This document shows positions 12,943-34,897 of a stretch of 36,536 bases of DNA, one piece after another. The position numbers and the translations under genes were made by a program. Position 1 is the first letter of the stretch, and every line of letters begins with the position of its first letter. This DNA is from Alphaproteobacteria bacterium RIFCSPLOWO2_01_FULL_40_26 (GTDB lineage Bacteria; Pseudomonadota; Alphaproteobacteria; Rickettsiales; UBA1997): contig MEMO01000027.1 of NCBI GenBank assembly GCA_001767955.1, positions 1 through 36,536 of the forward strand, given 5' to 3'. The notes below the pieces were generated by a model, which was given only the letters and a program-made list of their open reading frames with translations, ran no database searches and was not told the DNA's origin.

Positions 12943-13908
12943 TTAAATTTGTAAGTCATAAAACCTTTCGATTTCAGAATAAACATTGGCATGACCCTGG
13001 ATGGTGTTTATCCTGGCACGAAATTCAGCCGATCCCTTGAGGCCGGAACTATACCAGCCAATATGCTTGCGCGCCAATGGGATTGCGGTTTGCTCGCCGT
13101 AATGATCGATCATTTCATTGATATGATTGAGCACGATTTTTTTCTGTTCTGCGATTGTTGGAGTGGCAATTTTTTCTTCATTTTTTAGCTCGGAATTTAC
13201 TTGCGAAATCAACCATGGTTTACCATAACAGGCTCTGCCGATCATGATGCCATCTGCTTTGGAAAGCTCTAATGCTTTTTTGGCGTCGGCGGAATTTTTA
13301 ATATCGCCATTGGCAATCAGCGGAATTTTTACTGTTTCCTTGACGTGAGAAATCAATTCCCAATTTGCCGATCCATTGTACATCTGACAGCGCGTGCGAC
13401 CATGAACAGTAAGCATTTTGATTCCGACATTTTCAGCTTTTTTGGCAAGCGATGGTGAGTTGAGATTTTCATAATTCCAACCAAGACGCATCTTCATCGT
13501 CACCGGAATTTTCACTGCTTTAACCACGGCTTCCATGATGCGCGTTGCCAGATCTTCATCTTTCATCAAAGCGCTTCCGGCAAAACCATTCACTACTTTT
13601 TTCACCGGACAGCCGAAATTGATGTCGATGATATCAGCGCCCAAATCTTCATTTAATTTTGCCGCTTCTGCCATCACTTCAGGCTCACAGCCGGCAAGCT
13701 GCACCGACATTGGATAATGCGCATCGTCTTTCTGACATTTTTTCAGCGATTCACGTGTTTGTAGAATCATGGCTCTTGATGCGATCATTTCCGAAATCAC
13801 CAAAGAAGCGCCGAATTTTTTTACCAGACGGCGGAATGGCAAATCAGTAACGCCAGACATCGGAGCTAACAATACATTGTTCCGCAAAGAAATTTTACCG
13901 ATCTTCAT
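12943..13908 (-). CDS. dusB: tRNA-dihydrouridine synthase, DusB type
   Basis: This flavoenzyme reduces uridines in the tRNA D-loop with NADPH and FMN. Counting from MKIGKISLRN, it has APMSGVTDLPFR for FMN binding, the catalytic Cys100 in INFGCPVKK, MKMRLGW and HGRTR at 169-173, then the C-terminal helical domain. I place the start at the ATG at 13908, because the family begins this way. A further in-frame ATG is at 13917 and a TTG at 13926. With any of these it overlaps the end of the upstream membrane glycosyltransferase gene (stop at 13895), so the genes are coupled. Length of 321 residues is normal for DusB. Confidence 0.94.
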   Translation of the reverse strand: MKIGKISLRNNVLLAPMSGVTDLPFRRLVKKFGASLVISEMIASRAMILQTRESLKKCQKDDAHYPMSVQLAGCEPEVMAEAAKLNEDLGADIIDINFGCPVKKVVNGFAGSALMKDEDLATRIMEAVVKAVKIPVTMKMRLGWNYENLNSPSLAKKAENVGIKMLTVHGRTRCQMYNGSANWELISHVKETVKIPLIANGDIKNSADAKKALELSKADGIMIGRACYGKPWLISQVNSELKNEEKIATPTIAEQKKIVLNHINEMIDHYGEQTAIPLARKHIGWYSSGLKGSAEFRARINTIQGHANVYSEIERFYDLQI

Positions 13909-15967
13909 TCCTGACATAAATCTCAAAATCGTGGAACATTACTGATTCGGATTTGGAAATCCTATCAAACGAATCGTCCTTAAAAATTTTGTCCGATGGC
14001 GCTTTTTTCGAAAACACGGAATTAACCATACGATTTTCAAAATGAAAATTTTTCAAAAAACTTTTTTTGAAACCGTAATCAAGAAAATAAAATTCCAGAA
14101 TATTGATTCTGCAACGCTTGTAATCAACGGTGGCCGACTTGGAATTATTGACAAAAACCACCTTTGTTGCCGGATTTTTGATAGCATTTTTAACGTCATC
14201 CATCAGGTAAAAATAGGTAAAAACCTCGTCTGGATTTTTGATTGGAAACATCAGGCCGTTTTTCTGATAATTCCCAGTCTGCAGCATGGCGGCATATTGC
14301 TTTTGGCTATTGCCTTTGTTTAGATAATGCAGAGTTGGAAATATGTGACAAAGACAGTCGGAAATCATAACAATTCCATCCTGCTGCCGCGGCGCGTAGA
14401 GCTTGCTATAATAGGCGACAACATCAGACAATCGATTGGGAAAGGTGTAGGGATTTTTGTGAATGGCAACCAGGATCGGCATCTTGGCATAAGAGTAAAA
14501 CTGGCCACAAATCAATGTGGTTATCGCAAATAGCAACAGAGGTGAAAAATGATTTGCGATTTGCGAATAAATTCTTTTTTCAAACAAAAACAAAATCGCA
14601 AAAATGGCTGATAGGTGAATGATAAAACGTAAATCCGGAAATTGCTTTATTGCCAAAGCCACGCAAAGCATTATGGCCACGCAAAGAACCAGAAACAGCC
14701 CGAGATGCGCTCTGACACCATTTTTTTTAAAAATCAGAACCACCACATAAGCCAATGTGAACACCCACCAGAAATTAATACAGCGTATAAATCCGATTCC
14801 TCCATACAGAATTCCAAAATCAAAAACCGACAAAATCATTGCTAAAGCTATGACAATCTGATCTCTGGAGAATGAAATTTCCTTTGAAGAAAACAGATCA
14901 TAAGCAAATTTGGCGTAGCAGATAGTGGCAATTGAGAGGAAAATCGCATATTGATCGAGAGACCCGATATTTTCGAGTAGAATGACAAAGGCAGAAGCAA
15001 TCAAAAAAAGGGTTAAAACCAAATCAGATTCGCTAAATTTCAGGCGCAAAAAAATCAGGAATATGAAAAAAAACGGCATCATGGCGCCGATATTGTAGAT
15101 GATATTCCACGCAAAAAGCTCTTCGTTGTTATATGCCAGATAAGCCTTGGCGGCCATCGGCACCATGAATTCAAAAAATTCCGGCGCAAATTTGATGATT
15201 AAAAACAAATAAAGAGCGCCGATCAAAAGCATGATCAATCTGCTCAAATCAACAATTTTTCTGTTTTTGTAAATCAGATAGAATTCACCGAATATGACAA
15301 AAACCAGATAATGTGGCTTAAGGCATGGAATCAGTCCCATCAGGCATCCACGAGCTATCAAATTCTTGTTGTCAAAATTTTTTATTCCGGAAAGGCCCCG
15401 TCGCAAATCAACTTTCCAAAAAGTCTGAACCATTGATTTATGAGGACTCATCGAGTTTAAAAATGGTAAGAAATGGGGATTTGCGACAGAACCAGAAAGG
15501 CAATAAGAAATATAGGGAAAAAGCAGGATAAGCAGCAGGCTGGTTTTGGTGCCAAACTCGCCCATTGCTATGATGTTGTAGCGCAGAAAAAATCCCAAAA
15601 AACAGCTGATGATGATTAGGTTGTAATGGGCTCTATTTTGATAAATCGCACCACGTTGCAAAATTTTTGATGAGAAAAAAATTGATAACAGGGCAAGCGA
15701 ATTAATGACGATTTCAGAAAGAATCAGCGGGCTTATGCCTGTTAGCTCCGATAGCTTGTATTGCAGCGCATAGAAATAGAACGAGAACGGAAAATTGCCG
15801 TCAAAAAATCCGTAATAATATCCTTTTCCTTCGGTGATTTTTCTTGCCGAATCTATGTAAGCTCCGGTATCAACGCCGATATCCATGGTTGAGCGCAGAA
15901 AAATGCTAATCGCAAAAATCACGCTGCAACAAATCAGGAGAAATTTATTGTCGGAATAAAATTTCAT
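13895..15967 (-). CDS. Multi-spanning membrane glycosyltransferase-like protein (GT-C/GT39 type) with an in-frame repeat insertion
   Basis: A 690-residue integral membrane protein with a dozen or so hydrophobic helices and a C-terminal periplasmic-looking tail. The first extracytoplasmic loop, DIGVDTGAYIDSARKITEGK (30-49), followed by an aromatic FDGNFPFSFYFYALQY, resembles the acceptor/donor loop of GT-C enzymes that use polyprenyl-phosphate sugars (ArnT/PMT-like). Residues about 157-191 are foreign: they are encoded by an 88-bp palindromic element at 15400-15487 plus flanks, and the segment LSG appears on both sides, 35 residues apart. The frame is kept. It diverges from the second such gene with only 24 bases between starts. 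Substrate unknown; cell-envelope glycan modification is a guess. Confidence 0.72.
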   Translation of the reverse strand: MKFYSDNKFLLICCSVIFAISIFLRSTMDIGVDTGAYIDSARKITEGKGYYYGFFDGNFPFSFYFYALQYKLSELTGISPLILSEIVINSLALLSIFFSSKILQRGAIYQNRAHYNLIIISCFLGFFLRYNIIAMGEFGTKTSLLLILLFPYISYCLSGSVANPHFLPFLNSMSPHKSMVQTFWKVDLRRGLSGIKNFDNKNLIARGCLMGLIPCLKPHYLVFVIFGEFYLIYKNRKIVDLSRLIMLLIGALYLFLIIKFAPEFFEFMVPMAAKAYLAYNNEELFAWNIIYNIGAMMPFFFIFLIFLRLKFSESDLVLTLFLIASAFVILLENIGSLDQYAIFLSIATICYAKFAYDLFSSKEISFSRDQIVIALAMILSVFDFGILYGGIGFIRCINFWWVFTLAYVVVLIFKKNGVRAHLGLFLVLCVAIMLCVALAIKQFPDLRFIIHLSAIFAILFLFEKRIYSQIANHFSPLLLFAITTLICGQFYSYAKMPILVAIHKNPYTFPNRLSDVVAYYSKLYAPRQQDGIVMISDCLCHIFPTLHYLNKGNSQKQYAAMLQTGNYQKNGLMFPIKNPDEVFTYFYLMDDVKNAIKNPATKVVFVNNSKSATVDYKRCRINILEFYFLDYGFKKSFLKNFHFENRMVNSVFSKKAPSDKIFKDDSFDRISKSESVMFHDFEIYVRNEDR
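15400..15487 (+). repeat. 88-bp palindromic element, copy 1 (inside the membrane-protein gene)
   Basis: The ends are the perfect inverted repeats gtcgcaaatc and gatttgcgac. It matches the copy at 34770-34857 in inverse orientation at about 81 of 88 positions, and every difference I see is a transition. Near-direct repeats ccggaaaggc (15387-15396) and ccagaaaggc (15492-15501) flank it, exactly 105 bases apart, which looks like a target duplication. The insertion therefore adds 35 codons and keeps the host gene open. Confidence 0.88.
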
Positions 15968-34299: not shown

Positions 34300-34716
34300 T
34301 CACTTTCTAACCGGTCTACAATACAACTCCAGCTTATGCCCAATCAGCTCAAATCCATGATCGCGGGCAATTTTTTCTTTCAGATTTTCCAATTCTTCAC
34401 TGAAAAATTCATGGACTTCATTGGTAGTAATATCGATTAGATGATCGTGATGTTCATCGCTTTCAAGTTTTTCATAGCGCGCACGGCCCTTTCCGCCAAA
34501 ATCATGTTTGGCAATCACGCCAAGTTCATCAAACATTTTTACTGCGCGATAAACCGTAGCTATGCCGATTTTTGGATTAATTTTAGAAGCGCGACGATAA
34601 ACCTCTTCGACATCGGGATGGTCATGACTGTCTGAAATCACACGTGCAACAATGCGGCGATTCTCGGTTAATCTGATGTTTTTTTCTTCACAAAGTTTCT
34701 CAATTGGGGATGGCAT
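34300..34716 (-). CDS. fur: Fur-family regulator
   Basis: A 138-residue protein from the ATG at 34716 (MPSPIEKLCEEKNIRLTENR). It is a winged-helix repressor with HPDVEEVYRRAS, the DNA-recognition segment IGIATVYRAVKMFDELG (50-66), a metal-binding HHDHLIDI (89-96) and a C-terminal HKLELYCRP. The CxxC zinc site of E. coli Fur is absent, as usual in alphaproteobacterial Fur/Mur. Metal specificity (Fe or Mn) cannot be told. The frame stays open upstream through the 88-bp element at 34770-34857; that extension is not needed by the family and I regard it as untranslated leader. It is divergent from guaB. Confidence 0.94.
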   Translation of the reverse strand: MPSPIEKLCEEKNIRLTENRRIVARVISDSHDHPDVEEVYRRASKINPKIGIATVYRAVKMFDELGVIAKHDFGGKGRARYEKLESDEHHDHLIDITTNEVHEFFSEELENLKEKIARDHGFELIGHKLELYCRPVRK

Positions 34717-34769
34717 ATCTTCTTGTATTCTCGGTTGACACTTGCTGGTCTTCAATCCATTTTGGAACT

Positions 34770-34857
34770 GTCGCAAATCCCCATTTCTTACCATTTTTAA
34801 ACTCGACGAGCCCTTGTAAATCAATGGTTCAGATTTTTCAGAAAGTTGATTTGCGAC
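34770..34857 (-). repeat. 88-bp palindromic element, copy 2 (between fur and guaB)
   Basis: The ends are gtcgcaaatc and gatttgcgac; it is inverse to copy 1 at 15400-15487 with about 81 of 88 matching bases. Near-direct repeats ccattttgg (34757-34765) and ccatttttgg (34862-34871) flank it, again 105 bases apart. The frame in line with fur stays open across it. It sits in the only promoter space available to fur and guaB. Confidence 0.88.
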
Positions 34858-34867
34858 ATGGCCATTT

Positions 34868-34897
34868 TTGGCGGCCAATCTGGTAATTTGCTACAAT
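34868..34897 (+). promoter_or_regulatory. Candidate guaB promoter, possibly leaderless
   Basis: tacaat at 34892-34897, 18 bases after ttggcg (34868-34873), resembles a -10/-35 pair. It ends only 7 bases before the guaB ATG, so transcription would begin at or next to the start codon. There is no Shine-Dalgarno sequence (a T-run precedes the ATG). Tentative. Confidence 0.3.

Follow-up and report, generated by a model that had tools for sequence, protein, structure and literature searches.

Two groups of short repeats that enter bacterial genes are the closest described counterparts of the element reported here. The Rickettsia palindromic elements (RPEs) are short, multi-copy palindromic repeats that encode a conserved peptide and lie in frame in unrelated conserved genes, as set out in two reviews (PMC10969869, PMC2229807); their target duplication is entered as '?' in Table 1 of the latter (PMC2229807), and as of 2007 no transposase for repeats of this type had been demonstrated experimentally (PMC10969869, PMC2229807). 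The 107-bp Correia element (NEMIS) of Neisseria is, according to PMC2229807, a MITE with terminal inverted repeats (TIRs) and target duplications; it has a short form, whose open frames are found fused in frame in genes, and a long form, which has stops and is almost wholly intergenic.

The present element occurs twice in the window, that is, in the whole 36,536-nucleotide stretch of DNA that was analysed, which belongs to a genome of 1.44 Mb in 38 contigs (97.5% complete). We read it as a MITE that inserts in phase, would be tolerated in two dozen proteins and was presumably mobilised by an IS5/IS1182-like transposase, and we put the probability of this reading at about 0.88. The first copy (Table 1) lies in the gene for a 690-residue membrane protein, where an earlier, sequence-only reading had marked out an 88-bp element with perfect inverted ends of 10 bp, a direct repeat matching at nine of ten positions over a distance of 105 bases, and a protein motif, LSG, duplicated around the insert. 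The inverted ends (15400-15409 and 15478-15487), the direct repeat (15387-15396 and 15492-15501) and the LSG duplication (CLSGSVAN...RRGLSG) are all present as described; the element is likewise real, but its extent had been drawn too short, since comparison with the other copies and with sister elements leads us to count it as 100 bp, GGCC..ACC. The gain of 105 bp, or 35 codons, without a break in the frame also holds, as the sum of the 100-bp element and a target duplication of about 5 bp. In the membrane protein, the insert lies within a polar stretch flanked by two hydrophobic segments. For the host of the second copy, a Fur family regulator, the alignments of relatives start only past the insert.

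Table 1. Element copies of the window, their repeats and their host genes (positions are those of the window)
Feature	Position	Strand	Description
MITE copy 1	15394..15493	+	100 bp, GGCCCCGTCGCAAATC...GATTTGCGACAGAACC; one of 47 full-length copies
Left target-site duplication, copy 1	15389..15393	+	GGAAA; four of five bases as in the right one; GG next on both sides
Right target-site duplication, copy 1	15494..15498	+	AGAAA
Left terminal inverted repeat, copy 1	15394..15409	+	GGCCCCGTCGCAAATC
Right terminal inverted repeat, copy 1	15478..15493	-	GGTTCTGTCGCAAATC as read on the - strand
Host gene 1, 690-residue membrane protein	13895..15967	-	35 added residues at about 157-191, read in reverse frame 0
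MITE copy 2	34764..34863	-	100 bp; 87% identity to copy 1
Left target-site duplication, copy 2	34864..34868	-	AAAAT
Right target-site duplication, copy 2	34759..34763	-	AAAAT
Host gene 2, Fur family regulator (Pfam FUR)	34300..34878	-	+35 codons, forward frame 1, after codon 5, counted from the start of the called ORF, which may differ from the true start

Copies beyond the window's two were looked for in the genome and found. A first search with the element gave 61 candidates, of which 40 were scored and all 40 matched (best E 4e-55), many more than chance would give; an end-pattern search with fetched flanks established 47 full-length copies, spread over 23 of the 38 contigs. This census takes no account of reading frame and supersedes a search with the 690-residue protein, which was rejected as a copy count because its short open frames represent the query's reverse frame only. 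The copy finder required an exact spacing of 88 bp, so that copies with insertions or deletions would escape it, and the 47 leave out one copy cut by the end of contig C1 and a left end standing alone (C31:59065). The first 41 copies align without gaps. Among all 47 there are 35 distinct cores, the commonest of them shared by six copies; since 35 of the 47 lie within four changes of this core, the spread of the element through the genome looks recent. The TIR pattern GGNNCTGTYGCAAATC gives 36 matches in the genome and none for the reversed control, and the consensus folds better than its shuffles (z of -3.4 and -4.4 for the two strands; -2.3 for copy 1). Rfam gives no match at the element at the gathering threshold.

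The flanks of the copies carry a target duplication: five of five bases are identical on the two sides in 37 of the 47, against 2.9% of mismatched left-right flank pairs. The target is AT-rich, approximately ATWAT, and is followed by G in 41 of the 47 right flanks. At the left end, two bases are nearly always GG, the outer one agreeing with its counterpart in the right flank in 44 of the 47 and the inner one in 31; six left flanks read otherwise, and five of these six are identical to their own right flank there. The assignment of these two bases, to element or to target, is ambiguous; the lengths used here, 100 bp for the element and 5 bp for the duplication, are a choice, made after sister elements in a related genome (G019), where the next base is free. 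On this count the insert measures 105 bp in nearly all copies, while in two its length fits 104 and 106 bp, and in another five the flanks agree at no more than three of the five positions. The 104- and 106-bp inserts arise by the duplications ATATGG and ATTTACGG and lie outside gene interiors (G000:C9:23769 and C17:19686); judged by them, the length of the duplication varies. The element thus shows TIRs, a target duplication, short length without a transposase gene, many copies and, as described below, ends common to an autonomous element, the features by which we call it a MITE.

Each of the 47 sites was read with and without its insert, and the hosts were searched in Pfam; a copy is called interior where at least 15 codons separate it from either gene end, and a gene supported where it has Pfam matches (23 genes) or orthologues (the 690-residue membrane protein). 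So defined, 24 of the 47 copies are interior to supported genes, and every one of them is in frame, stop-free and adds 35 codons. The hosts are Ddl, ParB, NuoG, an AddB-like nuclease, an HHH/OB-fold protein, a Mur/FolC-like ligase, TrmD, an RlpA-like protein, an alpha/beta hydrolase, an ABC protein, a methyltransferase, two Fic-domain proteins, a biotin ligase-like protein, RibF, a P-type ATPase, ComEC, PrmC, a peptidase C26, an iron alcohol dehydrogenase-like protein, MurC, ferrochelatase and a formyltransferase, all from Pfam, together with the membrane protein, from its orthologues; gene symbols (ddl, trmD, murC, hemH, nuoG, parB and the like) are our reading of the Pfam matches. Several of these genes are of types that we take to be usually essential. 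In one ligase gene, the copy (L030, G000:C11:28816-28913) is nested mid-way in another palindromic repeat, CTGAAACAAGTTCAGGATGACA...TGTCATCCTGAACTTGTTTCAG, which is itself in frame and at which relatives are 13-18 residues shorter; this gene thus holds in-frame repeats in two layers.

The other copies are distributed among gene edges, small frames and non-genic DNA. Two keep the frame in reading frames that lack support (one a 149-aa ORF, the other a fragment of a decayed transposase), four are in frame at most 12 codons from a called start (NrdD, IspDF, peptidase S49, Fur), two lie directly ahead of a called start (one of the genes being PDH E2-like), two are in ORFs of 63 and 70 aa, four bring a stop at most 14 codons from the gene end (ParB, aconitase, ThiC, a 131-aa ORF), two bring a stop within a long reading frame, and seven lie elsewhere; of these, one precedes a nitrate-reductase-type gene and another is placed where a DAHP synthase gene starts. 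The parB gene carries two copies (G000:C2:22518 and C2:23549, L021), one in frame after codon 28, the other with its stop 14 codons before the end. As for the two stops within long frames, one falls in an IS1634-type transposase that is truncated at a contig end, a mobile element broken by a mobile element (L025, G000:C26:42608); the other site, which probably is intergenic, lies just past a complete exonuclease domain and is followed by an ORF with its own ATG.

Related genomes hold the same genes without the insert. Orthologues of the membrane protein without residues 157-191, which would be expected if these are an insertion, do exist: their alignments stop at about residue 157 and resume at about 197. 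The protein is matched in 19 of 20 genomes of the genus, its own included, with about 4-8 codons between the two aligned pieces where both sides match; a paralogue in its own genome (C11) is also without the insert. A query of 28 joined segments, from which the two Fic-domain genes were left out, was compared with six relatives, and empty sites were counted from 150 rows among the matches listed, of which one per genome and site was used. The junction is spanned at at least 23 of the 28 sites, in at least 106 site-genome pairs, and for 21 of the 22 interior supported genes in the query it is spanned in relatives with the insert absent; length differences at spanned junctions, among the matches listed, run from -18 to +12 and are never about +35. 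Paralogues may account for some of these spanning matches. NrdD and IspDF were discounted as spanned, the match there coming from the adjacent query segment (5 and 3 residues ahead of the junction); for Fur, the 149-aa ORF (L036) and the peptidase C26 gene (L019), too, no spanning match is listed. For sucA, the best 80 matches are to varied Alphaproteobacteria at 44-50% identity.

The same discontinuity is found against proteins of solved structure: TrmD, ferrochelatase and Ddl each align with their best homologues of this group as two pieces flanking the insert, at sites that presumably are surface loops. For TrmD, 26 of 27 solved sequences are split in this way; the exception, 7kff, aligns as a single stretch (260 to 265 residues), having extra residues of its own in that region. 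The element itself, near full length and at high identity, was found in none of 46 relatives among the candidates scored; among these, one genome (G016) carries two copies that reach 76% over 90-96 bases, and another (G019) has 25-26-base matches only.

Two of the six frames of the element are stop-free, and a third is so in variant copies. The 24 interior copies are read in forward frame 1 (18 copies), reverse frame 0 (five) and reverse frame 1 (one, open because its usual TAA is changed), and the peptide of forward frame 1 (HVANQLSEKSEPLIYKGSSSLKMVRNGDLRQS in the consensus) is predicted for 18 unrelated proteins. As a control, the phase of the target motif was counted in 159 ORFs of at least 200 aa, taken from the window and the fetched loci: of 1241 occurrences of WWWATG, 44% lead into forward frame 1, more than into any other of the six, and 12% into reverse frame 0 (541 and 152), with a small bias in that the set includes the host genes and their target sites. 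The ratio of 18:5 is predicted by target phase alone. The proportion of open frames is not: phase predicts about 56% with WWWATG, 48% with WWWATGG and 45% with a looser motif, and 24 of 26 interior cases are open (P of at least 24 of 26 is 6e-5 if phase alone decides at 0.56, and 1.2% if the variant reverse frame is taken as always open, at 0.72). The excess is best read as selection against stops, from which it would follow that the insert is translated. Substitutions, among which variants are shared between copies, number 24 synonymous, 33 non-synonymous and no stop in the 18 genic frame-1 copies, and 51, 50 and one in the other 29. The earlier proposal that the element is tolerated through a length that is a multiple of three and through stop-free frames is in line with these data (105 bp nearly throughout; 24 interior copies open).

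If the element were cut out of the mRNA, or if the ribosome skipped it, its genes would be functional in any frame, and both the folding of the consensus and the presence of copies in hosts that we presume to be essential are consistent with this; removal or skipping would make the frame irrelevant, however, yet all 24 interior copies are stop-free where 45-56% would be expected, and copies in frames with stops are confined to gene ends (at most 14 codons), the neighborhood of a start, a probable gene boundary, a transposase and non-genic DNA, so that we hold this explanation to be very unlikely. That the 35 residues serve their host proteins, say as a linker or as a site of contact, and that selection for this use rather than tolerance sets their number, is suggested by the occurrence of one peptide, in one frame, in 18 unrelated proteins; but the frames are used just as the target motif alone predicts, and relatives do without the insert, which makes host use highly improbable as well.

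Insertion in phase and tolerance by the hosts thus remain the preferred reading, and the ends of the element point to how it would have moved. The TIR pattern is present in 11 of 20 genomes of the genus, and its reversed control in none; many of these loci are sister MITEs with other interiors. Exact 5-bp duplications flank nine of the 16 that were listed from stretches of G016, G019 and G005 (eight of the 14 distinct ones), and none of the 16 (14 distinct) lies inside a long ORF that stays open, save for a 112-aa ORF starting at the element's edge. In G019 and G016, none of 12 distinct sister MITEs examined is within an ORF of at least 80 aa once removed; one G005 copy breaks a 506-aa frame, so that no strict rule seems to hold. 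Four G005 MITEs (L087, L090, L092, L094) have the same ends around a different, strongly palindromic interior (GGGGCTGGCCTTGTGCCAGCCCGC...), perhaps of nested repeats. Two lone terminal repeats in G019 (L061, L057), possible remnants, lie one reading into an ABC transporter-like frame and one just ahead of a lipoprotein-like frame, labels that are our reading of the translations.

IS with these ends are found in three sister species (G005, G016, G001), of which only that of G005 is intact: it measures 1335 bp, has the TIR GGGGCTGTTGCAAATC and ATACT on both sides, and encodes a stop-free transposase of 335 aa, the sole full-length stop-free one among the matches listed, with the Pfam domains DUF772 and DDE_Tnp_1 and with NCBIfam IS1182 and IS5 models below their cut-offs. 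The G016 and G001 elements, unlike that of G005, show no clear flanking duplication. Compared over 26-base ends, the left end of the MITE consensus agrees best with the right end of the sister IS (20, 19 and 21 identities), whereas the right end of the MITE agrees better with the left end of the IS (17, 17 and 19) than with its right end; in all three IS, this pairing outscores each of 500 shuffles as well as the opposite pairing, over which its lead in G001 is a single point. The G005 transposase has no match in the genome of the element, which holds decayed remains of another IS5 subgroup; the mobiliser is therefore lost or absent from the assembly, and the link to the IS rests on the ends common to the three sister-species elements. 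The element had been taken at first for a self-spreading one, a view that has to be given up: it is a MITE without a transposase gene, whose likely autonomous partner is the IS5/IS1182-like IS of sister species.

These ends also bear on whether the element could be a member of the RPE family proper, inherited or acquired from Rickettsia. As described, RPEs behave in the same way, being 105-146 bp long with a stem-loop and terminal repeats and lying in frame in unrelated conserved genes (PMC10969869, PMC2229807). Ends and duplication, however, link the element to others of its own genus, and a search of 384 further genomes of the class, with two candidates scored in each, gave no match beyond 28 bases; membership in the family is most unlikely. 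Three matches of 26-28 bases (L216-L218) were seen in such genomes (G076, G259, G419). Misjoining of a repeat into genes of the draft assembly, for which one might cite its 38 contigs and the end of C1 within a copy, is extremely unlikely, as misjoins would produce neither exact 5-bp local duplications (37 of 47 copies) nor a frame continuous on both sides in 24 supported genes.

On the reading of a MITE inserting in phase, the element would enter AT-rich DNA, at a target of roughly WWWAT with G as the next base, and duplicate some 5 bp; given its 100 bp, nearly every insertion would add 105 bp, a multiple of three. As two of its six frames, and a third in variants, are free of stops, an insertion in the right phase would lengthen a protein rather than break it. 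The phase of the target motif in genes would favor the main open frame and purifying selection would remove most other insertions, the predicted outcome being what the genome now holds: 24 supported genes with an interior insert of 35 residues, 18 of them with the same peptide. The element is a real, multi-copy MITE, and two dozen proteins very probably owe part of their sequence to it. It is a more tentative thought, which we are inclined to doubt, that the element is adapted to coding DNA, with its 105-bp length, two stop-free frames and codon-phased target acting jointly; if so, roughly half of random genic insertions would give an intact, longer protein, and a transposon lineage would have moved from the intergenic space of its sister MITEs (G019, G016) into genes.

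Taken together, the duplications, empty sites, sister elements and candidate transposase make the spread of in-frame elements, and their tolerance by genes, testable. The copies offer two dozen natural insertions of 35 residues, several of them in well-studied enzymes with solved homologues, and may help to explain how parasitic DNA survives within working proteins.

Among known systems, the element resembles IS6/IS26 in its terminal repeats, which in that family read GGnnCTGTTGCAAA. IS6 elements make an 8-bp target duplication, in contrast to the 5 bp seen here, and the matching IS of a sister species has another type of transposase; the family was rejected as a source, its domain PF13610 being unmatched in the genome and the sister IS carrying DUF772 and DDE_Tnp_1. 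With IS5/IS1182-like IS the element shares the terminal repeats GG..CTGT(C/T)GCAAATC and, in G005, the 5-bp duplication; it differs in being a MITE of 100 bp without a gene, and the IS itself can be placed no more closely than as IS5/IS1182-like, the NCBIfam models falling below cut-off. In the open-access portions of the literature that were consulted, no report of the same element elsewhere was found, and none of the haloarchaeal and Coxiella MITE descriptions there matches it. The Correia element is likewise a MITE with TIRs, duplications and in-frame gene fusions, but differs in its ends (TA), host bacteria and length; its intergenic long form has a close parallel in the sister MITEs of G019 and G016. 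To the RPEs, the likeness proposed in the sequence-only reading is borne out for behavior, with 24 of 47 copies interior and in frame in unrelated genes: both are present in many short palindromic copies with a peptide, a similarity of conduct, whereas the present element shows a target duplication, IS-like terminal repeats and a target phase. It is thus of a kind already known, as a variant set apart by the clarity of its duplication, by a candidate mobiliser, by the empty sites and by a target in phase with the codons.
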